NCBI GenBank assembly: GCA_022822005.1 | Contig: JAJECO010000044.1 | Coordinates: 124,001 to 188,000 of the forward strand | DNA from: Candidatus Poribacteria bacterium | Lineage (GTDB): Bacteria; Poribacteria; WGA-4E; PCPOR2b | DNA length: 64,000 bases | Direction of reading: 5' to 3' | Notes under the pieces: model-generated | Seen by the model: only the letters and a program-made list of their open reading frames with translations | Databases searched by the model: none | What the model was told of the DNA's origin: nothing | In this document: positions 23,147 to 57,200 of the stretch, one piece after another | Position numbering within the stretch: the first letter of the stretch is position 1 | Layout of the letters: every line of letters begins with the position of its first letter | Translations under genes and position numbers: made by a program

Positions 23147-23425
23147 ATGGATAATGCCACGTTAGTCACCATAATCTCCACAGTGATAGGCACTGGTGCG
23201 GCAGTCATAACCTTGAATATGGTATTTATCCTCAAGTTTGTCAAAGAACCTCTTGATAATAAGATTGATAGGTTAGAGGATAATCTGCAATCACAAATCA
23301 ATAGCGTTGATAATAAGATTGATAGGTTAGAGGATAATTTACAATCACAAATCAATAGCGTTGATAAGAAAGTTGATAAGCTGTATGAGCTGCTACTTGC
23401 CCACCATATGAATGATAATAAATAA
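23147..23425 (+). CDS. Small TM plus coiled-coil protein
   Basis: 92-aa protein: N-terminal membrane helix (about residues 5-29, LVTIISTVIGTGAAVITLNM) then a charged coiled coil. The coil contains two copies of an 18-residue unit starting NKIDRLEDNLQSQINSVD, encoded by a near-perfect 54-bp DNA duplication (about 23257-23364). Start ATG 23147 with AAAGGAG. Same architecture as the proteins at 37540 and 62733 and related in plan to those at 36300-40163. Function unknown; likely a membrane-anchored oligomer. Confidence 0.75.
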   Translation: MDNATLVTIISTVIGTGAAVITLNMVFILKFVKEPLDNKIDRLEDNLQSQINSVDNKIDRLEDNLQSQINSVDKKVDKLYELLLAHHMNDNK

Positions 23426-36223: not shown

Positions 36224-36266
36224 AGACAAAATTGTCTTGCCGAACCGACCCACCTCGTGATACCAT
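36224..36266 (+). promoter_or_regulatory. Predicted promoter with palindrome, coiled-coil family copy 1
   Basis: Palindrome AGACAAAATTGTCT (36224-36237) touches -35 TTGCCG (36237-36242); 18-bp spacer; extended -10 TGA-TACCAT (36261-36266). The same block, from the palindrome to the ribosome site AAAAGGAGG, precedes the genes at 38378 and 39747. Confidence 0.55.
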
Positions 36267-36299
36267 ATCCGACCAGTCATCAAAAGGAGGGGGTCAACC

Positions 36300-36683
36300 A
36301 TGCGAATCCTAACCATTCTATCGCTACTGCTGCTAACCTCTGCTGCGTCCGGCGAACTGACCAAAGAGGACCTACGCACCATCATTAAAGAAGAGATCAC
36401 CGCGTCCGAAAAGCGCATGAAGGAATATATCGATCTCAAAGTTGAGACGGTAACCGCCAAAATTGATGCCGTGGAGAAAAGCGTGGATGGCAGAATTGAT
36501 AATACCAATGGATATTTTGATCCTTTCGGAAACCTTGATCCTTTCTGGATTGCGATGGTAATGATTGTATCCCTCATTATACTTCCTCAACTCATTATCC
36601 TTTACAGAGAAATAAGAGACAGAAAGAAGAATTGGATCCAGATTCAAGAACTGCGCGAACGGATCGAAGCGTTGCGCCAATGA
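36300..36683 (+). CDS. Signal-peptide/coiled-coil/TM protein, family copy 1
   Basis: 127 aa. Signal peptide MRILTILSLLLLTSAASG, then ELTKEDLRTIIKEEITASEKR and a coiled coil (about 19-70), a membrane helix (about 82-102, FWIAMVMIVSLIILPQLIIL) and a short charged C-terminal coil ending ELRERIEALRQ. This places the long coil outside the membrane and the tail in the cytoplasm. ATG 36300 with AAAAGGAGGGGG. Paralogues at 36761, 38378 and 39747. Function unknown; the layout suggests an oligomeric envelope protein. Confidence 0.8.
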   Translation: MRILTILSLLLLTSAASGELTKEDLRTIIKEEITASEKRMKEYIDLKVETVTAKIDAVEKSVDGRIDNTNGYFDPFGNLDPFWIAMVMIVSLIILPQLIILYREIRDRKKNWIQIQELRERIEALRQ

Positions 36684-36760
36684 ACTCCCCGATAAATCAG
36701 GATTTTCAACGTGAACGGTATAGAAATACCTTCCTTACTACCTCCAATAGGAGTCCTTCC

Positions 36761-37120
36761 ATGAAAACGATTCTCGTCCTTTCGATCCTCTTTTGGGTGA
36801 TCGCCTTTCCCGCGCTGGGTGAATTAACAGATGCAGATCTTGACAAGATTCGCTTGATCGTTAAGGAGGAAGTCAAGGCGGAGATTGCTAGCTCTGAGCA
36901 AAGGATAACAAAGTATATTGATGCCAAAATAGAAGGTGTCAATAAACGTTTAGAAACATACAACTGGGTACTTATTGTCTTCATGCCTATTATTGTGGCT
37001 GCGATAGGTATCCCCTCAGCCATCATCGCGTGGCGGAGCGGCAGGGATCGCTCACTCGAAAGACAAGTTGAAACGCTCACACAGGAAATCGAAGCGCTGA
37101 AGCAGCAGCGATCCGCGTAA
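36761..37120 (+). CDS. Signal-peptide/coiled-coil/TM protein, family copy 2
   Basis: 119 aa; start ATG 36761 with AATAGGAG. Signal peptide MKTILVLSILFWVIAFPALG, then ELTDADLDKIRLIVKEEVKAE and SEQRITKYIDAKIEGVNKRLE, a membrane helix (about 68-90, WVLIVFMPIIVAAIGIPSAII) and a coil tail ERQVETLTQEIEALKQQ. More diverged from copies 1, 3 and 4 than these are from one another, and it lacks their upstream promoter block; it starts 77 bp after copy 1 and may be co-transcribed with it. Confidence 0.78.
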   Translation: MKTILVLSILFWVIAFPALGELTDADLDKIRLIVKEEVKAEIASSEQRITKYIDAKIEGVNKRLETYNWVLIVFMPIIVAAIGIPSAIIAWRSGRDRSLERQVETLTQEIEALKQQRSA

Positions 37121-37481
37121 TCCCTCAATCCGTGTTAATCCGTGATTCAGCCGGGATTCACATGTCGCCCCTCCGGGGCTTTGGTGTTTGGTGGCTCCGT
37201 TGTTCTATAAACATGCCGCCCCTCCGGGGCTAAAGACCCCCCTTTCTCCCTTTCCCGTTTTCCCGTTTTCCCGTTTTCTCGTTTTCTCCCCTGCCTCTTT
37301 GCGTCTTAGCGTCTTAGCGCCTTTGCGTTAAATCTTCTCCCGCGTTACGGGATTCGCATGTCGCCCCTCCGGGGCTTTGGTGTTTGGTGGCTCCGTTGTT
37401 CTATAAACATGCCGCCCCGCTGGGGCTAAAGACCCGTCTTCGCGTTTTTAATCCGTTGAAGGGTGAGAATATCTTATGTAG
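37121..37481. repeat. Intergenic repeat block (R7, two R3 pairs, R8, R6)
   Basis: R7 at about 37112-37150; two nearly identical R3 pairs at about 37160-37232 and 37357-37430, each CATGTCGCCCCTCCGGGGC, a TTGGTGTTTGGTGGCTCCG spacer and TATAAACATGCCGCCCC; R8 and R6 between them. Confidence 0.65.
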
Positions 37482-37510
37482 TTGCATAAGGTTTGCACGT
37501 TTGGTATAAT
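37482..37510 (+). promoter_or_regulatory. Predicted promoter of heptad-repeat protein
   Basis: -35 TTGCAT (37482-37487), 17-bp spacer, extended -10 TGG-TATAAT (37505-37510). ATG is 30 bp downstream. Confidence 0.7.
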
Positions 37511-37539
37511 GAGTATGAATGTGCAGAGGAGGTGATTGC

Positions 37540-37800
37540 ATGGGTCAAGTTGTTCAAATCGCCCAAATAGCATTTTTCACGACGGCGATTCTTGGTGCAA
37601 TAGTGGCAACCATCACATATGTTATCGGATTAAAGGCATCAGTTAAAAATCTTGAATACCGTTTTGATTCACTTGAGAAAAGGTTTGACTCACTTGAGAA
37701 AAGGTTTGATTCGCTTGAGAAAAGGTTTGATTCGCTTGAGAGGAAGGTTGATACTATCATAATGCACTTGATTGGGAATAAACCTGATGATAAAGCATAA
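37540..37800 (+). CDS. TM plus heptad-repeat coiled-coil protein
   Basis: 86 aa; start ATG 37540 with GAGGAGGTGA, ahead of which another in-frame ATG is unlikely. N-terminal membrane helix (about 9-35, AFFTTAILGAIVATITYVIG) without a cleavage site, then four consecutive RFDSLEK heptads encoded by 21-bp tandem DNA repeats (about 37660-37743), then KVDTIIMHLIGNKPDDKA. Same plan as the proteins at 23147 and 62733. A hairpin terminator follows. Function unknown; probably a membrane-tethered parallel coiled coil. Confidence 0.78.
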   Translation: MGQVVQIAQIAFFTTAILGAIVATITYVIGLKASVKNLEYRFDSLEKRFDSLEKRFDSLEKRFDSLERKVDTIIMHLIGNKPDDKA

Positions 37801-37803
37801 CAA

Positions 37804-37829
37804 AAGGGCGGTTAATAGTAACTGCCCTT
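37804..37829 (+). terminator. Hairpin terminator after heptad-repeat gene
   Basis: AAGGGCGGTTA (37804-37814), loop ATAG, TAACTGCCCTT (37819-37829): 11-bp stem with one G-U pair. Starts 4 bp after the stop codon; the following T content is modest. Confidence 0.6.
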
Positions 37830-38315
37830 ATTATGGTGTTGCATCCTTGCGCTACATCTTCTTTACGCCTTACGTTTTCACATGTCGCCCCGCTGGGGCT
37901 TGGGGAGGAGAGGGTGTCGCTTGGCTATAAACATGTCGCCCCTCCGGGGCTAAAGGCACCGACGATCCAATAGTTTTGATGTTTCACGCATCAGGTTTGA
38001 CGTTATCAACAGCTGCAACCTAACACCAGTGGTTATTATTCCAATGTATCAGTAATTATCATTTTTAGCATAATCCGTGATTGGGCCGGTGTTAAGAACG
38101 CGCAATGAATTGCGCTACTACAAACGGTGTGCAGCTCCTCTGGGGCTTTGGAGAGGGTGGCTCCGTTGTTCTATAAACATGCCGCCCCGCTGGGGCTAAA
38201 AGACTGTCCAAGTCCCCCTGCCAATGTTCCCCCCTGACAAGGGGGGCTAGGGGGGTTGGGGGATTTAGGGGGTTAGTTTTTAATCCGCGTCGTCTGCGCT
38301 TCAGAGAAAATTGTC
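37830..38315. repeat. Intergenic repeat block (R6 end, R3 pairs, R5, R2)
   Basis: R3 pair at about 37880-37952, R10 fragment near 37985, R5 at about 38095-38128, R3 pair at about 38135-38200, R2 at about 38225-38270, R7-like text to 38310. Confidence 0.65.
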
Positions 38316-38344
38316 TTGCCAAAGTCCCCACCCCATGATACCAT
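38316..38344 (+). promoter_or_regulatory. Predicted promoter, coiled-coil family copy 3
   Basis: -35 TTGCCA (38316-38321), 17-bp spacer, extended -10 TGA-TACCAT (38339-38344). The palindrome upstream is imperfect here (AGAGAAAATTGTCT). Confidence 0.5.
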
Positions 38345-38377
38345 ATCCGACGAGTCATCAAAAGGAGGGGGTCAACC

Positions 38378-38809
38378 ATGCGAATCCTAACCATCCTATC
38401 CCTACTTCTGCTAACCTCTGCTGCGTCCGGCGAATTAACCAAAGAGGACCTACGCACCATCATTAAAGAAGAGGTGCGCCCTATTATTAAAGAAGAAATC
38501 ACCGCGTCCGAAAAGCGTACGCGGGAATATATCGATCTCAAAATTGAGACGGTAAACGCCCGCATTGATGCGTTGGATCAGAAAGTTGATAATTTAGGCA
38601 AAAGCCTGAATGGCAGAATTGACGATATACGGACCATAATGATTGCACTCATTGCACTAATCACAGCCGCCATTGCCGTTCCTCAAATCATCATGGCTTA
38701 CAAAGAAAAAAGAGGTCAGAAGGAGATGGAGAGCAGTCAACAGGCGATGCAAACCCAAATTGACCAGCTGCGTGCACAAATCGAAGCGATGCAAAACACC
38801 CCATCCTAA
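38378..38809 (+). CDS. Signal-peptide/coiled-coil/TM protein, family copy 3
   Basis: 143 aa. Signal peptide identical to copy 1 (MRILTILSLLLLTSAASG), then ELTKEDLRTIIKEE with a local duplication (EEVRPIIKEEITASEKR), coiled coil to about 85, membrane helix about 88-110 (IMIALIALITAAIAVPQIIM) and C-terminal coil MQTQIDQLRAQIEAM. Start ATG 38378 with AAAAGGAGGGGG. The last 102 bp including the stop are identical to copy 4. Confidence 0.8.
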   Translation: MRILTILSLLLLTSAASGELTKEDLRTIIKEEVRPIIKEEITASEKRTREYIDLKIETVNARIDALDQKVDNLGKSLNGRIDDIRTIMIALIALITAAIAVPQIIMAYKEKRGQKEMESSQQAMQTQIDQLRAQIEAMQNTPS

Positions 38810-39683
38810 CCCACCCCTTCCCCCTTTCTCCCTTTCTCGCTTTCCCTTTGCGCCCTTTGCGCCGTTGCGCCTTTGCGTTAACTTTCCTTCTTCCGTTCTC
38901 TCGTTTTCCCGTTTTCTCGTTCTCTCGTTTTCTCCCTTTCTCTTTGCGTCCTTAGCGTCTTTGCGTCCTTGCGTTAAATTCTTCTTGTCCGGGATCTGCG
39001 GTGAATGCGCCGGGTGTCGGGGCAAGATGCCCCTCCTACAGGGGGATTCACATGTCGCCCCGCTGGGGCTAAAGGCTGTCCAAGTCCCCCTGACAAGGTA
39101 GGGGGTTAGTTTTTGGTATTATCCGTGTAATCGGCAATTCAGACAACTTGCCACATGGTGCTCCGCTGGAGCACAAGGGTTGGGTCTATCGCCCTCTATA
39201 GACATACCGCTCCTCTGGAGCGACAAACAATTCGGTCTTCCCGTTTTCTGGTTTTCCCTTTCCCCCTTTCCCCCTTTCTCGCTTTCCCGTTTTCCTTTGC
39301 GTCCTCAGCGTCCTTGCGCCTTTGCGTTAAAGTTTCTTCTTGTATTTTCTGTTTCTCGCTTTCTCCCTTTCCCTTTTCGTCCTCAGCGCCTTTGCGTCGT
39401 TGCGCTACATCTTCTTTACGCGTTACGGTATCACATGTCGCCCCGCTGGGGCTTGGGAAGGAGAGGATGCCGCCCAGCTATAAACATGCCGCCCCTCCGG
39501 GGCTAAAGGCACCGAAGATCCAATTGGTTATTATTCAAATGTATCAGTCATTATAATTTTTACCATAGTTCGCGCTTCAGTTGTGTAAGCACGCGCAATG
39601 AATTGCGCTACTACAAACGGTGTGCAGCCCCTTCTCCCTTTCTCGCCTTCCCGTTTTTAATCCGTGATTCAGACAAAATTGTC
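38810..39683. repeat. Large intergenic repeat block (R8, R6, R4, R3, R2 fragment, R5)
   Basis: Nearly 900 bp. R8/R6 tracts 38820-38985, R4 at about 39016-39045, R3 at about 39050-39075, truncated R2 at about 39082-39105, R3 variants with GCTCCGCTGGAGC at about 39155-39225, R6 copies at 39295-39335 and 39385-39420, R3 pair at about 39432-39505, R5 at about 39590-39625, R7 at 39657-39678. Confidence 0.65.
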
Positions 39684-39713
39684 TTGCCGAACCGCCCCAC
39701 CCCGTGATACCAT
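39671..39713 (+). promoter_or_regulatory. Predicted promoter with palindrome, coiled-coil family copy 4
   Basis: Palindrome AGACAAAATTGTCT (39671-39684), -35 TTGCCG (39684-39689), 18-bp spacer, extended -10 TGA-TACCAT (39708-39713); identical in layout to the block before copy 1. Confidence 0.55.
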
Positions 39714-39746
39714 ATCGGACCAGTCATCAAAAGGAGGCGTTCACCC

Positions 39747-40163
39747 ATGAAAATCGTAACCATCCTATCCCTACTGCTGTTTGCCTCATCCGCGTATGCC
39801 GAACTGACCAAAGAGGACCTACGCACCATCGTCAAGGAAGAGAACGCCGCGTCCGAAAAGCGCGTGAAAGAATATATTGATCTCAAAATTGATGCGTTGG
39901 ATCAGAAACTAAGTGCCAAAATTGATGGCGTGGAGAAAGACCTGAATACCCGCATTGATGCTGTCGAGAAAAGCTTGGGTCGTGTGTGGCTCATGATAGC
40001 TGCGCTGATTGGGTTGATAACAGCCACCATTGCCATCCCTCAAATCATTATCGCTTACAGAGACAGAGGTCAGAAGGAGATGGAGAGCAGTCAACAGGCG
40101 ATGCAAACCCAAATTGACCAGCTGCGTGCACAAATCGAAGCGATGCAAAACACCCCATCCTAA
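39747..40163 (+). CDS. Signal-peptide/coiled-coil/TM protein, family copy 4
   Basis: 138 aa. Signal peptide MKIVTILSLLLFASSAYA, ELTKEDLRTIVKEENAASEKR, coiled coil with KIDALDQKLSAKIDGVEKDL and AVEKSLG, membrane helix about 80-104 (WLMIAALIGLITATIAIPQI), C-terminal coil identical to copy 3. ATG 39747 with AAAAGGAGG. Probably duplicated recently from, or gene-converted with, copy 3. Confidence 0.8.
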   Translation: MKIVTILSLLLFASSAYAELTKEDLRTIVKEENAASEKRVKEYIDLKIDALDQKLSAKIDGVEKDLNTRIDAVEKSLGRVWLMIAALIGLITATIAIPQIIIAYRDRGQKEMESSQQAMQTQIDQLRAQIEAMQNTPS

Positions 40164-41115: not shown

Positions 41116-41325
41116 ATGTCAACTTTTCGCCGGTCTCGCCCGCCTACGCGACACCCCGGAAATCGACCCACGCCCCTCCGTTACACCCCTTCACACGAAA
41201 GGATTCCTATTTTTATGATACGAGAGAACGACGCATCGCCACCGTGTGACGAGCGTCAGAATAGAAGTAAAAACAGATCTAACGTAAACCTTTCAACCCA
41301 AAAAAAGACAGGAGGAAATTTTATA
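41116..41325 (+). other. In-frame leader upstream of giant gene, possibly translated
   Basis: ATG 41116 with GAGGGGAAAGC upstream opens 70 codons without a stop in frame with the giant protein (basic, Pro-rich: MSTFRRSRPPTRHPGNR). It is either a 5' untranslated leader open by chance or an N-terminal extension before the signal peptide. The better ribosome site belongs to ATG 41326. Confidence 0.4.
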
Positions 41326-44300
41326 ATGGGTATTCAAGGTATGACAAATTGGAAATTTACGGCGTTCCTTACTATCGCGTTGATGCTGGTCGCTGGCATG
41401 TTCAGTAGCACCGCTATGGCAGCAGCCAACGATGGGCATGGAACGATGACCGTTGCGGTAACTGGAGGTCCTAATTTTCAGGATGCAGCGGATTCCCTAC
41501 CCCAAATTCTGTTCGCCAACCAGACGGGGTATACAGTGACCTTTACCTACACAGCGACCGCCGACATGAACGGCGGGATGGTGCAGGTCCAGATCCCGGG
41601 CGACGATTGGAAACTGCCTAAGTCTGGCGTAACCGTTACCATTACCGGTGATAGCCAGATTTTGACAGCAGCTGCTAATACTGATGATCGATTGGTGTTC
41701 ACCGGTGCTGATGATAAGCTGACGTCGGTTGGTGTCAAGTTGGATGGTGATTGGAGTGATGGCGACGCGCTAACCATCGCATTCGAGAATGGAACCTCCG
41801 CTATTCCCCGTTCGCTGTATGTCCCCCCTACAGGTTATCCTTATCGGGAATATACATTCACAACCACAACGAAGGCAGATAAGGGCAATTTTAGACGTTT
41901 GCTCATCCCTGATGACGATCCAGATACACCCGCTGACGAGTCGGATGTAGATCCGCAACCGAAGATTCGCGTTGGTAATGTCGCGAGCGGTAGAGGCAAG
42001 ATTACATTTTCTACGACAGTCGCCCCTAAGACAGCAGTCTACCAAGGTGAGACGGATCGCACTATTCAGTTGACCTTCACCGCCGAGGGTCCGATGTATG
42101 ATGTGGGCGGCGCCACCCCCATTGGCAGCAATGTAGTGATTACGATTCCACAGGGACTCGGCTCAGTAGCGGACACATTCCCTGCGCCCATGGCACAAAC
42201 AACCAACGCGAGCGGGGACGAGTTCGTCTCTGTATCGCGCGTAACAGGCACCGTGCAGTTTGCGAATCCGAACCAGCGGATTATAGTTGATCCCACCAAC
42301 CGTAACCAGGTAACAATCGACATCACGCGGATGGAGTACAACGCGACAGTCACTGTTTCCTATAGGAAGGTTGATGTTGATCCTGGGCTAACTACCAACG
42401 CAGTCTTCAGTGCGACATCGATTTCAGGGACAGCGACTGGGGCGGCTGTTACTTTTGATCCAGCCGCAGACCATGTTCGGACAATAGCCGGTTCTGGGGC
42501 GATAAAACTTACGGACGGTTCGGACGATATTGTGCCGATGGATTCGAGGCAGAATCTCATCTTTACCTATACAGCGCATACCGCACTTACGAATGCTGAC
42601 TTGGTCATTACCCAGCCTGATGATGGTACATGGTCAGCTTTAACGCTTGTAATGGGTAGCGCGAATGCGCAAGCGGATAATTACGTTACCGTCAGCGGCG
42701 GGGGCGATGGCGTATTAACCCTGGCTGCTACTACCATTACTTTGACTGGGCTTGACCTTGCTAAAAATGGTTCGCTTACGGTGAGGATAAATCGAGCGGT
42801 GCTCGCAAGCACTGCCGATCCGCCCGTTGCTATTGTCGCTGGCGCGTATGGGTGGGCCACAACCCTCAATACTGTAGCTGTGACAGAACCTACGCTCTAC
42901 ATTGTGAACCCGAATGATGATGTTGAGTTTGACGTATTAAATGCGGCAGGTACCGCCGTTGATAACCTTCCACACTATCCCGCCGCGAGTGAGCGGAACC
43001 TATATTTTCAATTTGCACTTAGCACCCCCATTAAGGGTGGAGGCCTTCGATTTAACATCCCGAACGGTTGGAGGGGCCCCTCCCATACAGATGTAGCGAA
43101 TAAGGCGAGGGTGAAGTTGCTTGAACGCGACGCCGCTGGTGCCTTGGTCGACAGCGATACTGCTGATACCATCCCTGCTAACTTGGTTGATAAGTATGGT
43201 GCCGATGATAATGTTGTGGTCACAGCGTCAAGTACTCAGATCAGTGTTGCGATCAAGACGTTGAATGGCACGGCAGCTGCTCCTGTGAATGTCACGATCG
43301 TATACGGTAATGGCACCGGCGACATGCGAGGTATGGTGCAGCGCAACGCACAAGCCGATTTGGAGATTATCGGACGCTTTAGCACCGGCGTTACTGGTAC
43401 ATATTACCCCGCAGATTCACCCGTATTGATGCGGATTGGTAATGTCGAAGCTGGGTCCGGTGCTGCGATGATAACGCAACCGCCTAACCATAAAGTTGAG
43501 GCTGGTAGTGACAAGAATACGATTCGGATTGTCTACAGTGCAGCCGGAACGATGAACGGTGGTCGCGTGCGCTTGAGTACCCCCGCCGAGTGGGGTAACT
43601 TGGATGAGAGAGCTGGGGAAAAGAACCATATTCAGGTGGTTGCTTCAACGAATATGGTCAACCAAGACGCAATCCGTTACGGAGCTCACAACGTTTTGGT
43701 CCCTCTCATGACAGCTGGCTATACCAATACGGTCACATTTGTGCTTAGTAATGTGAAAGCACAGCCAAAGATTGGTCTCGCTCAATTCACGGTTGAGTCC
43801 GCTGGCGGTCCCAGTGACGGTCTAGTACGGCTCATGGGTGAACCGCTGCCGAAGGATGGTGACGATAATATAACCGATCCTTACATGTTGCTGGGGAAGG
43901 TCTACGTGCCTCATATTGCTCTTGAGGATGGTGGTGGTAACCAAGCTGCAGTTACGGCTGCTACAGGTCAGCTTAGACTTGAAGTGGTCGCCGGAGCGGG
44001 CGGCACAGGCGAGGCAGAGCTTCTCGAAATCGTTCGGACCGATTCGGGACTTCGGAATTACCCGAATGAAGAGGCTGAAGAGGGTGATCCCGCATTCGTA
44101 TCGGATCGGCGGATCCATGCCGGTGACAAGGAGATCTACCTCGTGTTTAGGTACACGCCGGTTGAAACCATTGAGGATGGCGCGCTGAGGTTCACCGTCC
44201 CATCCGATTGGAGTAAACCGCAAGAGGATAGTTCAAATGTGCTCGGTTATACTGAAATCTCGAGTTCGGCATCTCTTGGGGCATACGATTTTGCAGGTCA

Positions 44301-47300
44301 TATGATCACTATACCGATTGGCAGTATTGTCGGTGGTGAAAACATTGAGATTCATTACGGTGTAGGCAGCCTCGGTGCCACAGCGCCCACAGAGATGAAG
44401 GAAGTGAGTGGATTCAACTTTGAGGTGAAGGGGACATCGGGGGGATTTGAGAGCATCGGTATCAAGGAACCGGTAGAGGTCCTGTCTCAGGCAAGCGGCA
44501 GGGGTTCGGCTTCTGTTGAATCAATGAACGCCACCGCCGGTGCACCTGACGGTTCTATCACAATCACCTACACGTCGGAAGGTCAAATCGCAAACGGACG
44601 GATAAAACTGACCGTTGACGCAAAGTTGACCGGTGATCCCGATGGCGACGGTACGGCTGACGGTGTGATGAGCACCAGTGGCATTGCCCATTCTTCAGGC
44701 AGCGCAATGTATGGTGGCGATATGAGTGCCGCTGACTTGGAGACGTATGGAATCACCAAGGACGATATCCTTGTCAGTGGTGTCGATATGGCTGCCGAGG
44801 GCGAGTTCACCTTTAAATACGAAGGGATGATGCCGGAAGCAGCGGGCGATCTCTCATTCACCGTCGCACTTGACGGCGGCGAAGGTCCCCTTGATGCAGA
44901 AGGTATGGCAGAACTCGTAGAGGTTGACGGTTCTCCATTGACTGTTACCATTGGACAGGCGGCAGCCGGTTCCGGTATGGTTTCGATAGCCCCGATGACC
45001 AGTATTGCAGCCAGTTCAGAGGACAACGAAATCACTGTCACCTACACGGCGATCGGTGAGATCGGCGAAGGTAAGACAATCACCGTTACCGTTCCCGATG
45101 GTTGGTCACCTCCTCTCAACGAGGCAGCAGCCGACGAGAAGATGGGAACCTTCACCGCTGTACACGCGGACAAGGTGGCTGAAGACGATGCAGATGGTCT
45201 GCCTGACGGAGGCATTATTGTGACTGCAAGCACTATGAAAGCGGACGGCGCAGCTACAGACGCGGCTCCGATGATTATGGTCGCTACAGTTCCATCGGGT
45301 CAGATGATAAAAGCGGGTGATACGGTTACATTCACCTACTCCAATGCCACCGCAACGAGTATGCTGGGCGAATCCCAATTCGTAACGACCTATGATGATA
45401 TGGAGGTCGCAGGTGACGATACAATCCTCGTTGTATCTCCTAACCCCGCGACCACGCTCATGGTCACAAGCAATGCAATGACTGATGGTGGTAAGTTCTA
45501 CGACAAGCTTACCGTTACCGTTATGTTGCAAGATGATGACGGCGAAGAGGCAACGAGAGACGCCGCTGTAACCGTAATGTTAGACGATGGTGAAGGCGAT
45601 GATGATGCGGGTGGTACGTTTGAGCCAGCGTCAATCAGTATCGCCGTTGGTGCTACCGAAGGAGAAAGCACCTATACCCCCGCAGATGCAGGTGATATAA
45701 CCATCACAGCAAAAGCGGACCTTGATGGTGATGGAACAGACGAAACTGGCAGTATAATGGTTACGGCTGACACCATGACCCCAACGATTGATAGCGAATC
45801 TATCTCCGTTGCACCGTCGATCGCAAAAACGGATACGGCGGTAACCGTCTCGGCGATGGCAACGCCGAATCGAGCAGATGGCACAGTCCTCTTCTCAGTC
45901 AGTAACGGTGTTGTCACCGATGGGGTGATGAAAGAAGATGAGGCTGGCTCCTATACCGGCTCATTTACGGTTACATCACTACACGCTAATGATGTACACG
46001 ACGTCACTGTGCGTATTGATGGCACGACGCCTCCAGTAACAGTAACTGTTGAAGATGCGTTGACCATCGACACTATGGTACCGTCCGTAACCGCTTCAGA
46101 TGTTGAAGAGGTGGTTGGCAACGGGGCTACAGTTACCATCTCCGCTGTGGTGACAGATAACAACGCGGGCTTCACCGTTACGGCGAATCTTGCTATGCTG
46201 GATACCGAAGCAGATCCGGCTGTGGTGACGTTGATGCACGATGGCGTTGCTGATAGCAATACATACACCTATGAGCATACTATCAGCGCGGATAACGAAG
46301 CCGCAAACGATACGCATGCAGTCACCGTTACCGCGACCGACATCGCTGGTAATGAGACAACCGATGACGCAATGGTCACGTTGCAGAACTCGTTGTTCTT
46401 CACCTCAATGCTGGAGGGCGGTACAGTCTCCCTGATCCACGTGCCGTTGGCTGAGGAAGGGCTTGACACCGTTGCTGATCTTAAGGCAAAGCTTGGTGGA
46501 GACGCGAATATCAGTCTCCTCGCCGGCGTCTTCGGTGGGGGTTGGGATTTCGCGGGTGATGATGTAGCAATCACCGCAGACCTCGGTCTCCTCGTGAACC
46601 TGCGTGAAGATACAACGGTAACCTTTGAAGGTCGTCCGTGGGGCGAAGGTTCCTCGATGATTGACCTGACGAGTGGTCTGAATCTCGTCGGTGTGCCTCT
46701 CGACGCCGCTGACATCGACACAGTCAGCGACATCTCGGGTCTCTCCGATGCTATTACAGGGATCATCGCCTTATCTGAAGGTGAATACCGGTTGGTCGCA
46801 GCCGCTGGCGATCCCGGCGATGATGCGGTCGCAGGTGATGTGGCATATCTCGTAACTGCATCCGACGATGCGTCCATACCTGTCATGGGTGACGGGTGGA
46901 GCAACGAGGTTGAAGCCGGCGCAGCACCGATCGCGATGGCTGGATACAAGGTGGATAACCAGACGCCAGCACTTGCTGTCTACGGTTCTGTTGTTGATGA
47001 AGTCACCGGACTCGCAAAAGAAGGGTTCCGTGTCAAGGTGAAGAACCTGTCAACCAAAGCCGCGCTCAGTGAGATCACTTCCACTGAAACCGCCGACGGA
47101 TACGACATGATCTTTGTTGACTTGACTGACGCTCACGCAGCCCGCGTTGGTGATGTCTTAGAGATTTCCGCCGATTCGCCGGATCCGCTCATCGGTATCA
47201 AACCGGTGCGTCATATCGTTACTGTGGATGATGTGAAGGACAGCCGTATCACGCTGGAAGACCTCATCGCGTATGAGATTCCGGCAGAGACGGAACTGCT

Positions 47301-47577
47301 TCGCAACTATCCGAACCCGTTCAACCCGGAAACTTGGATTCCGTATCATCTGTCAGAGGATGCGAATGTATCCTTGACCATCTATGATGTGAATGGTGCG
47401 CTGGTCCGTGACATCGATGTGGGCTATCAGACCGCAGCGAAGTACGACACCAGAAGCAAAGCCATCTACTGGGATGGTCGGAACCTATTCGGTGAGCAGG
47501 TTGCAAGCGGTATCTACTTCTACAGCCTGAGTGCAGGTGACTTCTCAGCGACCCGTAAGATGGTCATCCTGAAGTAA
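41326..47577 (+). CDS. Giant secreted beta-sandwich protein with C-terminal T9SS-like sorting domain
   Basis: 2083-aa surface protein. Start ATG 41326, GGAGG 11 nt before it; signal peptide MGIQGMTNWKFTAFLTIALM with cleavage near AMA-AAN. The body is a series of about 130-residue beta-sandwich repeats, each opening GSG or SGRG and containing an xITVTYTAxG strand and a VPDGW/IPNGW strand (for example 41970, 43440, 44490, 44950), later Ig-like modules, then a region with LNLVGVPLDAAD. The last 97 residues (RNYPNPFNPETWIPYHL ... GIYFYSLSAGDFSATRKMVI) are a FlgD-Ig-like sorting domain of the type linked to Por/type IX-like secretion. Acidic, Thr/Val/Asp-rich, Cys-poor. Probably a cell-surface or S-layer-like adhesin. 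Confidence 0.88.
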   Translation: MGIQGMTNWKFTAFLTIALMLVAGMFSSTAMAAANDGHGTMTVAVTGGPNFQDAADSLPQILFANQTGYTVTFTYTATADMNGGMVQVQIPGDDWKLPKSGVTVTITGDSQILTAAANTDDRLVFTGADDKLTSVGVKLDGDWSDGDALTIAFENGTSAIPRSLYVPPTGYPYREYTFTTTTKADKGNFRRLLIPDDDPDTPADESDVDPQPKIRVGNVASGRGKITFSTTVAPKTAVYQGETDRTIQLTFTAEGPMYDVGGATPIGSNVVITIPQGLGSVADTFPAPMAQTTNASGDEFVSVSRVTGTVQFANPNQRIIVDPTNRNQVTIDITRMEYNATVTVSYRKVDVDPGLTTNAVFSATSISGTATGAAVTFDPAADHVRTIAGSGAIKLTDGSDDIVPMDSRQNLIFTYTAHTALTNADLVITQPDDGTWSALTLVMGSANAQADNYVTVSGGGDGVLTLAATTITLTGLDLAKNGSLTVRINRAVLASTADPPVAIVAGAYGWATTLNTVAVTEPTLYIVNPNDDVEFDVLNAAGTAVDNLPHYPAASERNLYFQFALSTPIKGGGLRFNIPNGWRGPSHTDVANKARVKLLERDAAGALVDSDTADTIPANLVDKYGADDNVVVTASSTQISVAIKTLNGTAAAPVNVTIVYGNGTGDMRGMVQRNAQADLEIIGRFSTGVTGTYYPADSPVLMRIGNVEAGSGAAMITQPPNHKVEAGSDKNTIRIVYSAAGTMNGGRVRLSTPAEWGNLDERAGEKNHIQVVASTNMVNQDAIRYGAHNVLVPLMTAGYTNTVTFVLSNVKAQPKIGLAQFTVESAGGPSDGLVRLMGEPLPKDGDDNITDPYMLLGKVYVPHIALEDGGGNQAAVTAATGQLRLEVVAGAGGTGEAELLEIVRTDSGLRNYPNEEAEEGDPAFVSDRRIHAGDKEIYLVFRYTPVETIEDGALRFTVPSDWSKPQEDSSNVLGYTEISSSASLGAYDFAGHMITIPIGSIVGGENIEIHYGVGSLGATAPTEMKEVSGFNFEVKGTSGGFESIGIKEPVEVLSQASGRGSASVESMNATAGAPDGSITITYTSEGQIANGRIKLTVDAKLTGDPDGDGTADGVMSTSGIAHSSGSAMYGGDMSAADLETYGITKDDILVSGVDMAAEGEFTFKYEGMMPEAAGDLSFTVALDGGEGPLDAEGMAELVEVDGSPLTVTIGQAAAGSGMVSIAPMTSIAASSEDNEITVTYTAIGEIGEGKTITVTVPDGWSPPLNEAAADEKMGTFTAVHADKVAEDDADGLPDGGIIVTASTMKADGAATDAAPMIMVATVPSGQMIKAGDTVTFTYSNATATSMLGESQFVTTYDDMEVAGDDTILVVSPNPATTLMVTSNAMTDGGKFYDKLTVTVMLQDDDGEEATRDAAVTVMLDDGEGDDDAGGTFEPASISIAVGATEGESTYTPADAGDITITAKADLDGDGTDETGSIMVTADTMTPTIDSESISVAPSIAKTDTAVTVSAMATPNRADGTVLFSVSNGVVTDGVMKEDEAGSYTGSFTVTSLHANDVHDVTVRIDGTTPPVTVTVEDALTIDTMVPSVTASDVEEVVGNGATVTISAVVTDNNAGFTVTANLAMLDTEADPAVVTLMHDGVADSNTYTYEHTISADNEAANDTHAVTVTATDIAGNETTDDAMVTLQNSLFFTSMLEGGTVSLIHVPLAEEGLDTVADLKAKLGGDANISLLAGVFGGGWDFAGDDVAITADLGLLVNLREDTTVTFEGRPWGEGSSMIDLTSGLNLVGVPLDAADIDTVSDISGLSDAITGIIALSEGEYRLVAAAGDPGDDAVAGDVAYLVTASDDASIPVMGDGWSNEVEAGAAPIAMAGYKVDNQTPALAVYGSVVDEVTGLAKEGFRVKVKNLSTKAALSEITSTETADGYDMIFVDLTDAHAARVGDVLEISADSPDPLIGIKPVRHIVTVDDVKDSRITLEDLIAYEIPAETELLRNYPNPFNPETWIPYHLSEDANVSLTIYDVNGALVRDIDVGYQTAAKYDTRSKAIYWDGRNLFGEQVASGIYFYSLSAGDFSATRKMVILK

Positions 47578-47702: not shown

Positions 47703-48257
47703 GTGTAAAGTAGTAGGCATTCTCCCAATGCCGCAACACCGTAACATTCGTAGGGAACGCAGATCTGCGTTCCCTACACCCTTAACCGCAAGACCTGTGG
47801 ATTTGTCAATCCACAGGGAGCGTTTGGGCGTTGCATCAGGTTCGTAGTAGCGCAATTCATTGCGCGTCTGGGCGAGTCAATCTCGCCGCTACGACACCCT
47901 TAACCGCTCGGTTTGGATTGACAAATCCAAACGCTTTTTCGACAAGACCTGTGGATTTGTCAATCCACAGAGAGCATTTGGGGATGTGGATTTGTCAATC
48001 CACAGTGAGCATCTGGAGATGTGGATTTTCCAATCCACATGGAGCATCTCGGTTCTAATTACGCATTACGCACTATTCCTTAATAAATGGTTTCATATAT
48101 TAGCTTATCCATTAACACATGTTGGCACCTTGAGAAAAAAACGGGGGACCTCCCAAAAAAATTGGAGTATGCCCCAAAACGGACAGAAACCGAGTTTTCT
48201 CACAAACTCGGTTTCTCTAATTAAATCATACTGATGGGAACCCTCAGGAGGATAGAT
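47703..48257. repeat. R1-hairpin array, R5 and spacer before second giant gene
   Basis: Four GTGGATTTGTCAATCCAC-type hairpins (47795-47816, 47949-47970, 47986-48003, 48021-48038 with TTTTCC centre) plus GTTTGGATT..AATCCAAAC at 47911-47932, spaced by GAGCATTTGG/GAGCATCTGG phrases; an inverted R5 at about 47846-47870. R10-like ACGCATTACGCAC near 48060. No gene. AACCGAGTTTTCTCACAAACTC-type inverted repeat near 48190-48220 may be a further stem-loop. Confidence 0.65.
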
Positions 48258-51200
48258 ATGAGTAGCAAGAAGTTCGTATATTTACTTATAGCGGTAGCGC
48301 TTGTCTGCGGTTTCATTATGGGTGACACCGCCCACGGACAGTCTACCGGTAGTTTAGCTTTTGGTGGAAGCGTCTTAGATGCCGATGACAACGCTGTTCC
48401 CGGATATACAATATCAGCGGAGTTTGTCCCCGCCAGGACCGGCTTTCAGATCCTTCCCGTGTCGCGTCCTGATGGTAGCTATAACCTCGCTATCTTGGGC
48501 TTTACTATCGGCGGTCCCCCGCCTAAGATAAATGTCGGGGATGTCATAAAAATAACGGCGACCCATGCCGATGGCAGCACGGCGAGTGTCACACATACGG
48601 TAACGGCTGCAGATGTAGCCAGTAGCCAGGTCAAAGACCTTAATATTGTTCTTTCAGGGCTTACCGTTGAAGCCAGTCCGCCCTCAATCCCCGCCCACGA
48701 CACCAATACATCGACGATAACGGTAACGGTTCTGGAAAGCGGCGAGGGGGTCACCGGCGATACAATCAGGCTTTCAGCGCCAGCGGATAAAGGAACCGTG
48801 GACGCTACCGCTACAGAGGTCGGAGATGGCGTCTACACCGCGACCTATACCGCACCGTCCCTCGTCCTTATCGCTGCCGAATCCGTCGACATCGCCGTGA
48901 GTTCAGCGACAACCGGGCTCAAGAAAAGTGTATCAATCCTGTTGACACCGGTGCCGACCACCGTTTCGCTTGCACTTGGCAAGAATAGTTTCATGGCGGA
49001 TACACCCGAAACGACAACTGTCACCGTCACCGTTAATCGAATTGATCCTGTTACAGATGAGGTCGTCACACTCAGCCTCAACCCTGCATCCCCTGAAGGC
49101 GGGTCCGTGAGCGCCGTGACCAGCAACGAGGACGGCACCTACAGCGCGACCTACACCTCCGGCAGCACCGCTGGGAATGTTACCCTCACCGCGACGGCAA
49201 CCAAAGCACTCACTACGGACTCGGCAGCCATCACGGTGAACGCCGGGCCGCCCGCTAACGTTGATGTTACCGCAGCCCCAACCATCGTCACGAGTCTTGG
49301 GAGCGCGACCATCACCGCGATGGTCACCGATAGCAACGGCAACGCCGCCGGTGGGGAATTGACCGCTGAAACAACGAGCGGTGGAACCGTTGGCGAGTTT
49401 ACCTCAACTGTCTTCGGCACCTACACCGCAACCTATACCGCCCCCGAACTCGATGTCGAATCGACCGAAACAATAATGGAAACGATAACGGTCTCAACGG
49501 GAGATGTCTCCGGGTCCACCACGATCGAGCTGCTACCTGAAGATCCGATAGATGTCACTATCTTGACTGTTGAAGGGATAGTCTACAAAGAGGATGGCGA
49601 AATCACCGCAGATGAAGGAACCGAAGTGACCGTCACCGTCGCTGGAACTCCGAGGACAACTACCACCGATGCGAACGGTTATATGGTGTTGTTCATCGGT
49701 GATTTGATCTCGCCTGTTGCGACCACCGGCAACGAGGTCTCCATTGCTGTTGGGGACGCCACCGTGGTTGGCCTAACTGTCAACGGCACCGCACGAACTG
49801 GATCCAGCTTCCGTCTGGTCAATGACATCCTCGAAAAAGTGGCAGCGGGCGATCCGATCGTGGTCGATGTGACGACGGACATCGTTATTCCGCCCCGCTC
49901 TGTCAGCTCCCTGGTTGTAGAGGGGATGGCCTATAAAGAGGACCGTATCACCCCCGCGGGCAGCGGTCTTCAGGTTGTCGTCACCGTCGGTGAAAATACA
50001 CAGACTGTCCAGACCGAGGTAAACGGGTCTTATCAGGCACTGTTCATCGCCGATTTAATCACGACTGTTGCGACCACCGGCGACCCGATTTCAGTCGAGG
50101 TAAGCGATGCTCGTGTGCGTGGCACAAATCCGCCACCGCCAGAGGAGGCGACCCTCAGCAATAAAGAGCTCGGCACAACCGGTTCCACGACAGTTATCCG
50201 GAATGTGTACACAGATATAAAACTCACCACAAGTATCCTCGCCGTAGGCGGCACGGTCTACCTCAAAAATGGCGATACTGATAGTATCGCAGCGGCAAAA
50301 CATCTGAGAGAAACCGAACTGACCGTCGTTGCGACCAATACCACCCGTAACATTGAGATGACCGGATCCGTCGATGACGAAGGTCAATATGAGCTCCTCT
50401 TCGTCGGTCCAAACCTCTCCACCGTTGCAGAGACGGACGATGAAATCGTCGTCGAGGTGCAGAACGATGCGGGCGTCGGTGTTGGAAGTAGCTCCCATAT
50501 TGTTACTATAGCTAACATTAATGAGACGCGGGCGGACATTGATGTTGACACAACTGTACCCGCCAGAGTGTTGGCGCTCCATGTTGAAGGGGATGTCGTT
50601 GAGTTAGATGGCAGCTCCGCTGGTCCCGGCGTTGAGGTCACACTCATGATCGTGATGAACGGGAGCTCCATAGAAGCAGATGTCGTCACAGATGCCGCAG
50701 GCCGCTATAGACATCTCTTCGCCGCTGTCAGTCCAGAAGCGCCAGCCGCGCGCACCGACGATATACTGAGAGTGCAGGTGTTACGGGTGGCTAACGGATA
50801 CTTCGGCTATAGGGAAATGGAGTTGCGAACCGACGAGATCGTGTACGAGAATCAGCCGCTGATCGTTATGCCGCCGATTCAACTGATTCCTCCCACCTTG
50901 CGGTTGGGCGGTCTTTCGATCAATACCAGCCACGCAGACCAGTATTACGGCTATCTCAGTCTGGAGGCGATTAAAAAGAATCCTGAGCTGCTTCAGCTGA
51001 TCCCCTCCGGTATCCTACATATCGATCTGGCACAGAATCTACTGGGATCGCTGCCGGCAGGGTTCAACCCAGCCCCCGAACCGACCGCTGATATCACGAA
51101 GATGTACGAAATTGATTCGGAGAACTTCGGCAACGGGCTTACCCCAAGACCCGCATGGCACGTCTTGGCAGGGAGCAGCCCGGCAGATTCGGGTCGATGG

Positions 51201-54200
51201 CTCAATGGGAATCAACTCAATCTCTATGTTGTCACCGGTCCCATTCCGAGTGTCCAGAGTGTGACCTTCACCCTCACCGGACCGGGGGGCGGGACGATGG
51301 AAGCCGAGCCTGTCGCCGCTGATGGCTATACCCACAACTTCCAACTGGAAGAAGAGCGAGCAATCCTCTTCCTTCCGTCATGGCCCAGCTTGAACGCGAA
51401 TGCGCCGATCTTCTCAGGCGTTACCTTGATGATTGATGGTCAGGCGCCGATGCCGATGACCTCCACGGTAGTTGGGGACGAGGTGGTATGGGAAGCACCA
51501 ACCACGCTGACTGCTGGTGCTACGGTCGCTTACCACTATCAAGTGACGCTGGCACAGCCGTATGAACTGGACGACGGAACCGTGGTGTCCAGTTGGCCCA
51601 TGCCCGATCCACGGAACCTACAGGTCGAAAACCGAGGCATCGTTGAAACGCTGCTCGCACCAGATGTGCCAGAACTCAAGGAGATTGTTACAACAACGGA
51701 TCTTAAGTTGCGGTCCGTGTTCGACGTGCCAGCTCCGGGCGCGAATGAATCCCTCTGGGTCGCCACATTTGATTTCGACGCCGGCGCGGATGGCGCGTAT
51801 AGTGTGGATACGGTTGTCCAATATGAAGGTGGACTCGTACGAAATATTCCCAATCAGATGTTTACCCTTGATCGGGCAGCACCGGCCGCCGGCATCACCG
51901 CAGCGATCGGTGAGAGTGCCGGACTGTATCAGCGTGCCGATGGTTCCTATGTCACCGCAGCGCATACAGATGCCGGAACCTTAAACCTCATGACGATGCC
52001 GATGGATGTACCGTCGGAGTCAGCCGCTTATCTATACCAGATTATCGAACTGGACGCTGAAGGCAATCCGGGGAATCAGGTGTGGAATCCAATAACGGTG
52101 ACAGGCGAAATGCTACCGCTCACCTATATGGACCCCCATCAGGTACAGATCCCGATTGGCGATGTGGGGAACTACGGTATTCGTGCTGTCGGTGTTGACA
52201 GTATCTTAAATATCGCTTCCAACACAATGCCGAGGATGGTGGATATCGTGCCTCCCGATCCCGATGTCGCTGAGCTGACCCTCGTTCACGCCGATTTTAT
52301 TAAGGACGGTGTCTTTGGCAGGGAACAGAGTGTTTCCGATGGCGTGACTATCTTCTCAGATCTGAGTCCCGTCACCCTAACCTTCGGGATGGCCGCGACC
52401 GATCATCCGCTCACGTCAGTTGTCGTTGACTTCCAGATCGACGGCGAAGGCGATTGGAAACAGATCGCAATGCTAACCGGGGATGCCCTCGCTGCCGCAA
52501 AGGCTGGGTTTGAGGTCACTTGGGATCGGACGGACGATTTCGCGGCTCTGCTCGATATGAGAGGGACGGCGACGGTTCGTGTCACTGTGGCAAACGCTTT
52601 GGATATTGAGGACGAGTCAACCGCAACGCTTGAAGTTGTTCCTCCCGCTTTACTGTTGGGTGGGCTTTCCTTAGATACCAGCTATGCAGAGACTCATGCA
52701 GACGCGTGGAACAGTATGCTGGAGTTGGATCTAACCGGACTTCTCGCCAATATGCTGCAAACAGATCCATATAGCTTAATCTCCCCGAGTCTGCTACCTA
52801 TCGGTTTAGCGTTCATTGGCATATTGGGAGAGATTGACATTGAATTGCCAGCGGGGTTTGAACCCGATAACGAACAGATTCATCAGGAAAACTTTGGTAA
52901 TGCTATCACACCGAGACCGATATGGTATCCCTTAGCATCGCAAATGCGGGATCCCGGTCGATGGATTAATGGCAATCAACTGCACCTCTACACGTTGGCG
53001 GGTCCAACCGCAGAAAGCGTGACGTTCAGCATCACAGGAGCGGGGTCCGCTATGGCAGAGGCCACAAAGGTGGAGGCAGATGGTTCCTTTATGTATACTT
53101 TCCAACTTGAGGAGGAATTGTTAGCAATCTTCGCGGGGAGTATGCCAGCATTTGAATCCGTTACCCTGATGATTGACCACCATGCACCGACCGCTATGGA
53201 ACTCGGCGATGGAGGCGTATGGTCAGCCGAAGTACCGTTGACCCCCGATTCCACAGTCTCTTACTACTACATCGTTAAGCTCGCCCAACCGTATCAAGAT
53301 CCACTCATGGGCAGGCCGATACAGGTGTTCCCACTGCCTGACCCACGCAACCTACAGGTCAGAGAGGGGAGTATCCATGCCCTGATGAAATTCCTCATTG
53401 AAGGATTTGACTCGCTTCCGACGCTGGATTCAGGGGTCAGGTCCAGGTTTGCAGTGCCGGCAGTGGACACAGGTTCACAGTCCCTATGGGTCGGTAAGCT
53501 GGATTTGACTGCTGACGGTATGCATCAGGTGAACGTCGCTGTCCAATATAGCGGCGGTTCTACAGATGAACTTACCGGCAAGATGCTCAACGTGGATCGG
53601 ACGGCACCGACAGCCGATACTATGGTCGATGCCGACGCACCCGGTGAGAACATCGGTATGTATCTGCGCGCAGCAGATGGGCAGTATGTCGCAACCGCGC
53701 TCCCGAACCCAGGGGCGGCGAGCTTAGACGTCACAGCAGTTCCAATAGATGATTCAGACCTTGAGGTCTATCTGTACCAGATGGCTCGGTTAGATGACGC
53801 AGGTTATCCGGGGACGTGGAATCCAATCCTAACCCTCGATCTGCTGGGGGGAGACCTCACGCAACTGTTGATGAATCCAGCGGGTATCTTGCCGCTGACC
53901 TCCATGCCGCCGCATCATGTTCAGATGCTCGTTCGCAGTGAGGCTGGAAGTATGTTGGATTACGGTGCATACGGTCTCCGTGTCGTCGGTGTCGATAATA
54001 TCTTAAATGCTGATTCGAGCAGAGGTCCCGGTGTCGTATTGAATCTCGTTCCACCAGACCCGGATATCGCAGAGGTCACCTATGTGACATCAGACTTCGA
54101 TGGGAACAATGTAATCGAGGGACTCGAAATGCAGTCCGCAGCCGGAGATATTGTCGTCTACTCTGAGTCGCTTGTAACGCTCACCGTTGAGGTGAAGGAG

Positions 54201-57200
54201 CGAACCGATCACCCGTTGGTTTCAGTTGTTCTGGAGTATCAGATACCCGGCTCCGGTTGGCTACCGATCGGTGGGTTCGGTCCTGAGCAGCTTGCTGGCG
54301 TTGGGCTTGGCGACAGTCTGCAAGTTCCCCTGCCTGTCCCTGATATCCCGCTTCTTCCGGACAGGGGCGCACAGGTCATGTTGCGAACTGTTACGACCAA
54401 TGCGCTGGACATTGTCAATGAGCACGTTGTAACCGCCCAATACGAGCGTCGTCTGGAACCGTCGGTGTCAGCAATTTACGCTGATGTGACCGATCGTCAC
54501 CCCGACAGCGGTGCTGCACAAGGGTCAATCACCGTCAGTGCTTTCACACAAGCGATGACCAATCTACCGACAGCCGTGGTGCAGTTGGAGATTCGTCGGA
54601 CCGCCGATACGGATTGGATGCCGCTCGGTGTCGTACAGATAGCCGAGTCAACGGTTACCTCTCACGTTAATCTCGCTATTATTGACGGTCTGGTCAATTC
54701 GATTGTCAACGGCGCGCCTACCGCACCAATCTCTGTGCTTTATCGACAGTGGCCACTTCCTATTGATAGCGCGCTGCTTGCGGACACCATCTTGGACGAT
54801 ACTCCGGCTGCGAGCGATGCGAGCCTCGATGACAATCCTTATGTCCTCCGAGCCATCGCCGTCGATACGGCTGGTACAGGATATGAATCGGCTGATGGAA
54901 AAGGCTTCTCTTTGGACAACTACTCACCCACAGCGATTACTACAGTCGCCAACGAGGTTGAAGCGGTTGCACCACGTGCAGACGGAAGCTACTATGTCAG
55001 TGGGCTACTCCACGAAAGTGTGCCAGATCCGATGCTGACCTTGACCACACGGACAGGGGCACATCCGAACGGATTCACAGGCGGCATGGCACTCGCTGTC
55101 AACGATGCGTCCGGCACAGCCGTGGAGATCCCTGCGACAGCGTTCACCGCTGCCGGTTATCATAACTACACAGGTGTCTTTAATCTGGCGTCAATCCCGA
55201 ATGGGATGTACACCTTCAGGGCAGTCGCACACGCCGCTGACGGTTCGCCAGAGGAGAGAATTGTCGCTATGGAGATCACCGTTGAGGTCGGTAATTTCAC
55301 ACCACCTGAGAATTTTGCAGACCCGACAGTTGATATCCTCAGTGTTATCAATACCCAAGGTGATGCACGGAGTCCAAGCGAAATTGATGCTGAGTACACG
55401 ACTGGATTCCCCGCCACCGAGGAGAAGGTGACTGCAACCCTGATGGTGCCGAATGTCTCCGCAGGCGATCTTGATGTTCTCATTGGAGACGATCTGATGT
55501 CTGCAGCAGCGATGGATAGCCTCATGGTGATGCAGATGGAAGGTAGCATCGACAATGTGATCATGGTCGATACCTCCGGTCTCGAAGAGGGGATGCACGG
55601 TCTCGTAGGCGTGGTGATCAAGCCGAACGGCAGCATTCAGTTCGCTTTACCATCAATCCGAGTTGATCGGACAGGTCCTGAGATCGCTATTGTATCGCCG
55701 ACGGAACGGGATCAAATTACCGGGTTGCCGACCGTTCACGTAACCTTTAGTGACGCGACCGGTTTCGATGTTACCGATACCGATCCGAGGCATGCAGTGC
55801 TGACCTTGACCCGGTTGGGCGATGAGGTGGAGATTGATATCACCGAAACCCTGATCCGTTTGACGGCAGCCGCTGACGGCGAAATATTGACCCGGGACGG
55901 TGATATTGTCTACACGCACGATGATTCGTTGATCGGCGGTGCATACCGCATCGGTGCTACCGTGATGGATGTGCTTGGCAATGCAACCACCGCGGAACCG
56001 GTTGAGTTCACCGTTGAAGGTGTGCAGCCGACCGTGTCAATCGTGTCGCCGAGTGCTGGACATATTATCGATCCGAGGCAGCCATTGATTGTCAGTGTCG
56101 CGCTTACCGGTAACGGTGATATAACGGTCACTGAGTTCCAAATCAACGGTAACGATCTTGAGGGAACCGTAGAGGATGGATGGCTGACCTACACGATGCA
56201 GCCGCCTCTGGTTGACGAATCGGATTCCGTGCTCCAACGCGGTAGCGATAACACCATCTCTGTCAAGATTGTCGACAGCGAGGGTCGAACCGCTGAGGGT
56301 GCCACCGGTTTCGCGGTCTCCTTAGATAGTACACCGCCAGTGATTTCGGGACCGTCGCCGAAGGGTGACATTACTCGGAAGATCGGTCGAATCACCGCAC
56401 TTGTGACCGACAATGAATCGGACATCACGCGGATCCAGTACGCGCTTGACGATAGTCCGCTTACGGATATTTCGTTCTCGCCGGCAAGGGTCTACGAAGT
56501 GGGCGGCGGCAAAGAGGTAAAGGGTCAAACCTCCTTTAACCTGTTCGACGCACCGCTCGGAACGCACACGGTAACCATTGTTGCCGAAAGTACTGGGGGT
56601 ACGACCACCTTGACGTGGGAGTTCACCATCGTGCATCCGGATCAAAAACCGCCGGAGGTTGTCACCTACTCGCCGCTCGGAATTATTCGGACGGATCGAC
56701 CGGTACTCGCTGCGACAGTGAGCGATGAATCGGGCTTCGCAAGGGACGGCATCACGCTAATCCTCGCGGGTGTACCCGGCAACCAAGGTTCAGGTCGACG
56801 CTCAAGCCCGACCTCTACCACTGTTACATTCACGCCAAGCATTTCGGTAACGCCAGGTCCTTACACGGCACGGCTTACGGTGGTTGATAAGTACAACAAC
56901 CGAACCGAGGCAGAATGGCAGTTCACGGTTGAACTGGATGAGACGCCGCCGTCAATTACGGCGACCGCGCCGCACGGTGTGATTCACATGGATAAACCGA
57001 TTATCACGGTTTCCGCCAGTGATGATAGGTCCGGTGTGGATAGCATCGCAATTACAGCGAAGGACAGTGGAGGATTGCCAGTCAATGGTGTCACCGATGT
57101 CCGGTCTGATAAGACAGCCGCTACCTTTACACCGACGCAGGCGTTGAAGGATGGCGTGTACACCGTCGATGTTAAAGTCGCGGATCAGGCTGGGAACGAG

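Follow-up and report, generated by a model that had tools for sequence, protein, structure and literature searches.

A family of small membrane rod proteins in Candidatus Poribacteria with a possible role in defence against foreign DNA

Four paralogous genes and their protein family

The window analyzed here, a stretch of 64,000 nucleotides (nt) from a Candidatus Poribacteria genome (assembly GCA_022822005.1, contig JAJECO010000044.1, positions 124,001 to 188,000), contains four small paralogous genes on its forward strand: gene A (36300 to 36683; 127 amino acids, aa), gene B (36761 to 37120; 119 aa, counted from ATG), gene C (38378 to 38809; 143 aa), and gene D (39747 to 40163; 138 aa). An earlier, sequence-only reading had recognized these open reading frames (ORFs) as paralogues built from a signal peptide, an external coil, one membrane helix, and a cytoplasmic coil, and both the ORFs and the predicted plan hold for all four. 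In gene A, the predicted signal peptide covers residues 1 to about 18 and is followed by an external helix, a transmembrane (TM) segment at residues 83 to 101 (36546 to 36602), and the cytoplasmic coil; the TM segments of the others lie at residues 71 to 89 in gene B (36971 to 37027), 87 to 105 in gene C (38636 to 38692), and 84 to 102 in gene D (39996 to 40052), each being the single strong hydrophobic segment of its protein (Kyte-Doolittle hydropathy of 2.3 to 2.6). The four products align end to end, with 42 to 70% identity to the gene C copy, and the motifs ELT..DLR.I.KEE and SE.R...YID.K, together with the TM region, are invariant or nearly so. A start motif previously claimed for all four does not extend to gene B, which has instead the commoner family motif, of the ELTDADLDKIRLIVKEE type; this copy is nearest to the sponge-symbiont branch of the family, and its closest counterpart within the window's genus (g1) is found in genome G005 (59% identity).

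With a profile built from the four genes, 69 of 98 related genomes yielded members (E values down to 1e-49; 1 to 17 copies per genome). These span several families of the order, with weak matches in other families of the class, but 13 genomes from outside the phylum gave no match. When 84,980 species were scanned, 94 loci were confirmed, and all 80 that were retained belong to Poribacteria, in keeping with the suggestion that the family is lineage specific. The window genome itself (G000; 6.0 Mb in 97 contigs) has five copies, i.e., the four in the window and one on contig C83. Searches of Pfam, NCBIfam, and PHROGs returned no consistent family match; the coiled-coil cross-hits were weak and scattered, with 7 of 33 members sharing the most frequent Pfam match, and the open-licence literature yielded no paper on either these proteins or the leader RNA described below. 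The extent of the profile matches, the restriction of the retained scan hits to Poribacteria, and the lack of a database family together argue that the family is real, phylum-restricted in the collections searched, and undescribed there; genes A to D thus represent an undescribed protein family so far found only in Candidatus Poribacteria.

Across 118 members, the TM segment has a mean hydropathy of 2.5, lysine and arginine are commoner after it than before it, and the cytoplasmic coil behind the TM window has a median length of 33 aa; the external helix ranges from 38 to 86 aa over the whole family. These features are consistent with the envelope topology proposed earlier, in which a cleavable signal and one TM segment would be followed by positive charge on the cytoplasmic side. 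An AlphaFold2 model based on 33 homologues consists of a single continuous helix from residue 22 to 139 (mean predicted local distance difference test score of 86.8), and a Foldseek search of the PDB returned no similar fold, as expected for a single rod.

The expectation that the ORFs are conserved as proteins was borne out by the ratio of nonsynonymous to synonymous substitution (omega), since copies occupying the same site in different species show purifying selection, with a median omega of 0.19 (Nei-Gojobori method, 79 pairs, which are not independent), and this value points to a selected function. Values among the window paralogues are more relaxed (0.42 to 0.78) and are biased because these copies are mosaic. 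Genes A, C, and D are mostly 80 to 95% identical over a stretch that begins about 85 nt upstream and includes the promoter and start region; they diverge in the stalk and TM segment, and the 3' ends of C and D are 92 to 100% identical, such that gene C has its 5' end in common with A and a 3' end nearly the same as that of D. Upstream of these three genes lies a promoter-like cassette with the pattern TTGCC-N18-TGATACCAT, located on the forward strand at 36237 to 36276 (gene A), 38315 to 38354 (gene C, with 3 mismatches to the pattern), and 39684 to 39723 (gene D). The pattern occurs at 3 sites in the window against 0.07 expected by chance; across the genus it is confined to the corresponding cluster (G000, G002, G003, and G005), and we infer that the cassettes act as promoters.

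Three further genes, at 23147, 37540, and 62733, had been counted with the four as one family of seven. The grouping stands for genes A to D, which score 118 to 162 bits against the family profile; the additional three reach 17 to 24 bits through coil segments alone and carry no signal-peptide/ELT motif, and because these are merely low-scoring coil cross-matches, we consider them separate proteins. Those at 37540 to 37800 and 23147 to 23425 are small and of the TM-coil type, and each contains tandem repeats that are in frame and nearly exact (FDSLEKR four times and an 18-aa unit twice, respectively). The TM-plus-coil protein at 62733 to 63188 contains NQRIDET heptads, and among its relatives in the genus both termini are conserved and the number of repeats differs; it is a second dispersed coil family.

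Dispersal of the genes and their neighbors

The dispersal of individual copies is best seen in family f3, which consists of metagenome-assembled genomes largely from sponges and has 154 members at 77 distinct sites, 16 of which are flanked on both sides by codirectional genes within 150 nt; 400 kb of random control DNA contained no family members. At the livF-lgt junction, the gene is present in G041 and G043 and the site is empty in six genomes whose Lgt N termini are 94 to 96% identical; in another group, the junction is occupied in G035 and G057, and just the 3' end of the gene is retained in G047 and G058. The sufC-sufB junction is likewise occupied, empty, or marked by a remnant. Because the left flank and the 3' end are preserved in the remnants, these represent internal deletions, and a 5'-truncated, retrotransposition-like origin was rejected. 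Dispersal is gene by gene, into operons that are unrelated to one another, and copies then decay or vanish at individual sites. An earlier proposal of a variable family is therefore supported by copy number, length variation, the mosaic of 5' and 3' ends, and presence or absence at orthologous sites. A sigma-70-like promoter with 9 or more of 12 matches stands within 75 nt of about 44% of f3 copies, versus 12% of shuffled sequences and 19% of other genes.

Such presence and absence at orthologous sites is a trait of transposable elements, but no general target-site duplication and no conserved ends were detected: left and right flanks are no more alike than pairs taken across loci (P = 0.61), with suggestive repeats at the lgt and suf sites, and neither shared end sequences nor a mobilizing enzyme was found around the copies. 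Neighboring genes vary among the f3 sites, none being a constant partner, and a conserved partner gene was accordingly rejected.

Several copies lie beside restriction-modification (R-M) genes. Of eight sites in the window's genus, four are next to Type IIG R-M genes; copies outside the main cluster stand directly beside them at loci L197, L198, and L200 in genomes G001 and G003 (Eco57I matches of 1e-24 to 1e-25 and PADLOC Type IIG scores of up to 1123 bits), with family copies about 20 nt behind the Type IIG genes. In the window genome, about 150 nt separate the fifth copy (L203) from the gene for an MmeI homologue of 882 aa (MmeI_Mtase, 7.6e-83), and in G005, HTH_37 (HigA-like) and AAA_21 genes occur near a family copy. 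One f3 copy sits between the Mod (PADLOC, 482 bits) and Res (630 bits) genes of a Type III system, and immediate f3 neighbors carry a DNA-methylase motif in 9 of 129 cases versus 1 of 111 controls (P = 0.017). At L104, a family gene is located 172 nt behind an ORF that appears Cas6-like by eye.

A pseudoknotted leader RNA and its client genes

A second upstream type in f3 is a leader of about 100 nt whose start lies about 6 nt downstream of an extended -10 box. It comprises an outer helix, P1 (CCAGTTT/AAACTGG), a second helix, P2 (GGGTGGCA/TGCCACCC), with an inner hairpin, and a pseudoknot in which the P2 loop pairs with the 3' side (CTGCGAAG/CTTCGCAG). Among 79 distinct sequences, 95.1% of cells pair, and covariation over P1, P2, and the pseudoknot amounts to 88 double-changed cells versus 32.9 after shuffling (0 of 500), with slid controls reaching at most 39; covariation was also run on a version with 15 sequences. 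Compensatory changes affect six of the eight pseudoknot pairs, in an alignment fitted to P1 and P2 and not to the pseudoknot, and the inner hairpin has a folding energy of -5.1 kcal/mol versus -1.3 kcal/mol for shuffled sequences. Upstream conservation ends at the -35 box, which favors a transcribed element over a transposon end, and the position of the promoter would place the start of transcription at P1. No Rfam family reaches its gathering score on the leader, and we regard it as a newly recognized, putative cis-regulatory RNA with covarying helices that is absent from Rfam. Of 83 genomes of the class, 52 contain matches to the leader model, 263 in total, and every one of these lies in f3.

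Family genes follow 32 of 71 leader copies sampled in score order. Many of the other copies stand before genes of known defence classes, including N6_N4 methyltransferases (1.7e-37 to 9.9e-50), nucleases (BglII, 2.6e-22; Mrr, 8.7e-34; and DpnII, 1.6e-5), AbiTii (6e-40), a HicB-like antitoxin (1.8e-15), TIR (3.6e-18) and FRG (7e-16) proteins, and an SNF2/ResIII helicase. About 15 of 25 nonfamily client groups, defined manually, are of R-M, toxin-antitoxin (TA), Abi, TIR, or FRG type, as against about 4 of 111 genes from random regions (Fisher's P = 3e-10), and as all of the seeds for the leader were family genes, this enrichment is not circular as far as defence is concerned. The association with R-M genes and the shared leader RNA were both unforeseen in the sequence-only reading. 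A conserved 86-aa MDILEEL protein, MDILEELKARDERIEKLERALLL, lies behind the leader at L338, L339, L348, L351, and L353 and has no Pfam match; it is a candidate new defence gene. The client at L330 is an ORF of near-perfect repeats, FAREVDKAGQSRHLMRGLARD.

Window surroundings, interpretation, and known systems

Downstream of the cluster, the window encodes two giant secreted proteins with FlgD-like C-terminal domains (41116 to 47577 and 48234 to 57824), followed by a PorV-like protein (57975 to 58898) and a LysM coil protein, and this synteny is retained in the genus. Elsewhere, an ORF at 16474 to 17658 with IGNKRALL and DPPY motifs resembles a D12-type DNA adenine methylase, and two paralogous ORFs at 11817 to 13439 and 14631 to 16193 are similar to GH32 proteins of the levanase/invertase type. 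Intergenic palindromes, 30 of the GCCCCGCTGGGGC type and 18 of the CCCCCTGACAAGGGGG type, are spread over the whole window, and thus the view that surrounding repeats are a hallmark of the family genes could not be maintained. At L105, a close relative of the CCCCCTGACAAGGGGG palindrome is inserted into the leader RNA.

Because copies lie repeatedly beside R-M genes, and because defence genes in f3 have the leader in common with them, we interpret this Poribacteria-specific family of membrane rods as an accessory, defence-associated membrane component of the repertoire directed against foreign DNA, a reading to which we assign a probability of roughly 45%. The proteins would be small rods of the inner membrane, probably oligomeric, with the signal peptide cleaved, a variable helical stalk outside, one TM segment, and a short coil inside. 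Their genes would spread singly, each with a promoter of its own, remain under purifying selection while present, and decay or be lost site by site; in f3, many copies would be expressed from the promoter and leader also used by methyltransferase, nuclease, HicB-like, AbiTii, TIR, and FRG genes. By analogy, stalk and membrane rod might act at the envelope, hindering or sensing the entry of DNA alongside internal R-M systems, or they might serve as a membrane-side partner of restriction. A more specific version, in which f3 has a defence regulon controlled through one structured leader and the rods, as its most numerous clients, form an envelope-level antiphage layer working with R-M systems, is possible, with the odds against it.

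Several observations weigh against a role in defence. The neighbors at most f3 sites are metabolic or housekeeping genes rather than defence genes; the family contains no catalytic or known defence domain (PADLOC was applied to the neighbors alone); IMG/VR viral contigs contain no family relative at the sensitivity used; and the defence statistics are weakened by the manual grouping of clients and the small control of 111 genes. The leader that these genes share could be a mobile promoter and imply no common function, and R-M and family genes may merely occupy the same insertion-prone islands. The leader is absent from the window's genus in the search of 83 class genomes, and the window cluster adjoins the giant secreted proteins, a setting that fits at least as well with a general envelope scaffold, in which the rods would be oligomeric inner-membrane tethers or stalks that organize the envelope or the giants, with R-M adjacency due to insertion-prone islands and the leader serving as a convenient strong promoter. 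The cluster abuts the giants in all examined g1 genomes with assembled flanks, a further copy in G001 is near a paralogue of that giant, and the modelled continuous helix and the purifying selection also suit a scaffold; yet the giant neighborhood is seen only in g1, f3 sites offer no constant partner, and copies are freely lost at individual sites, and we consider this explanation rather unlikely.

Dispersal of single genes into operons with their own promoter, the coexistence of empty and occupied sites, and the internal-deletion remnants would also be produced by a selfish or hitchhiking unit of promoter or leader plus ORF that spreads for itself and persists if harmless or addictive. This we judge improbable, given that the omega at orthologous sites indicates a selected function, that signs of target-site duplication, common ends, and a mobilizing enzyme are lacking, and that conservation upstream of the leaders stops at the -35 box. 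A viral origin was rejected, as neither family relatives nor the leader core were found in IMG/VR. Least probable in our estimation is a regulatory or signaling subunit (or membrane-damaging effector) that relays external stress inward to adjacent defence systems: coils on both sides of the membrane, the copy between Mod and Res, and the copies closely behind Type IIG genes would fit such a role, but there is no constant partner, and many copies stand alone in metabolic operons.

If the defence-associated reading is correct, the family would extend the defence arsenal of a major uncultivated phylum of sponge symbionts by a membrane component, and the leader would be one of few known cases of one structured RNA leader common to many unrelated defence systems, suggesting that defence is coordinated at the RNA level. 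Sponge symbionts are enriched in R-M and TA systems (PMC5649159), and hence a common regulatory leader would be plausible there. The leader also provides a search handle, in that the genes behind it, such as those for the MDILEEL proteins, are candidate new defence genes.

Among known systems, superinfection-exclusion proteins (Imm, Sie2009, Ltp, and gp15 of HK97) are small proteins of the envelope that have a lipid anchor or one or two TM helices, have no enzymatic domain, and are carried by prophages or plasmids. The present family resembles them in being small, located in the envelope, devoid of an enzymatic domain, and linked to antiphage genes, but it is chromosomal and multicopy and lacks consistent similarity to PHROGs; carriage by prophages or plasmids was not observed, there being no relative on viral contigs (which were searched, unlike plasmid collections). 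CCDC90/MCUR1 proteins (DUF1640) are coiled-coil membrane proteins of head-neck-stalk-anchor architecture with a C-terminal anchor; they have in common with the family a long helical stalk and a single TM segment, whereas the family has a signal peptide, a TM segment in mid-protein, and a cytoplasmic coil behind it, and the families listed when members were scanned against Pfam do not include DUF1640. Type IIG R-M loci (Eco57I and MmeI) are frequent neighbors of the family gene in the window's genus, and we know of no R-M loci that carry a signal-peptide/TM coil gene. The leader is similar to cis-regulatory RNAs with H-type pseudoknots (SAM-II, SAM-V, preQ1, and guanidine-III) in that it is a short 5' leader with a pseudoknot near the start codon, but it differs in having the additional outer helix P1 directly behind the promoter and in serving defence genes and membrane rods rather than a single pathway.

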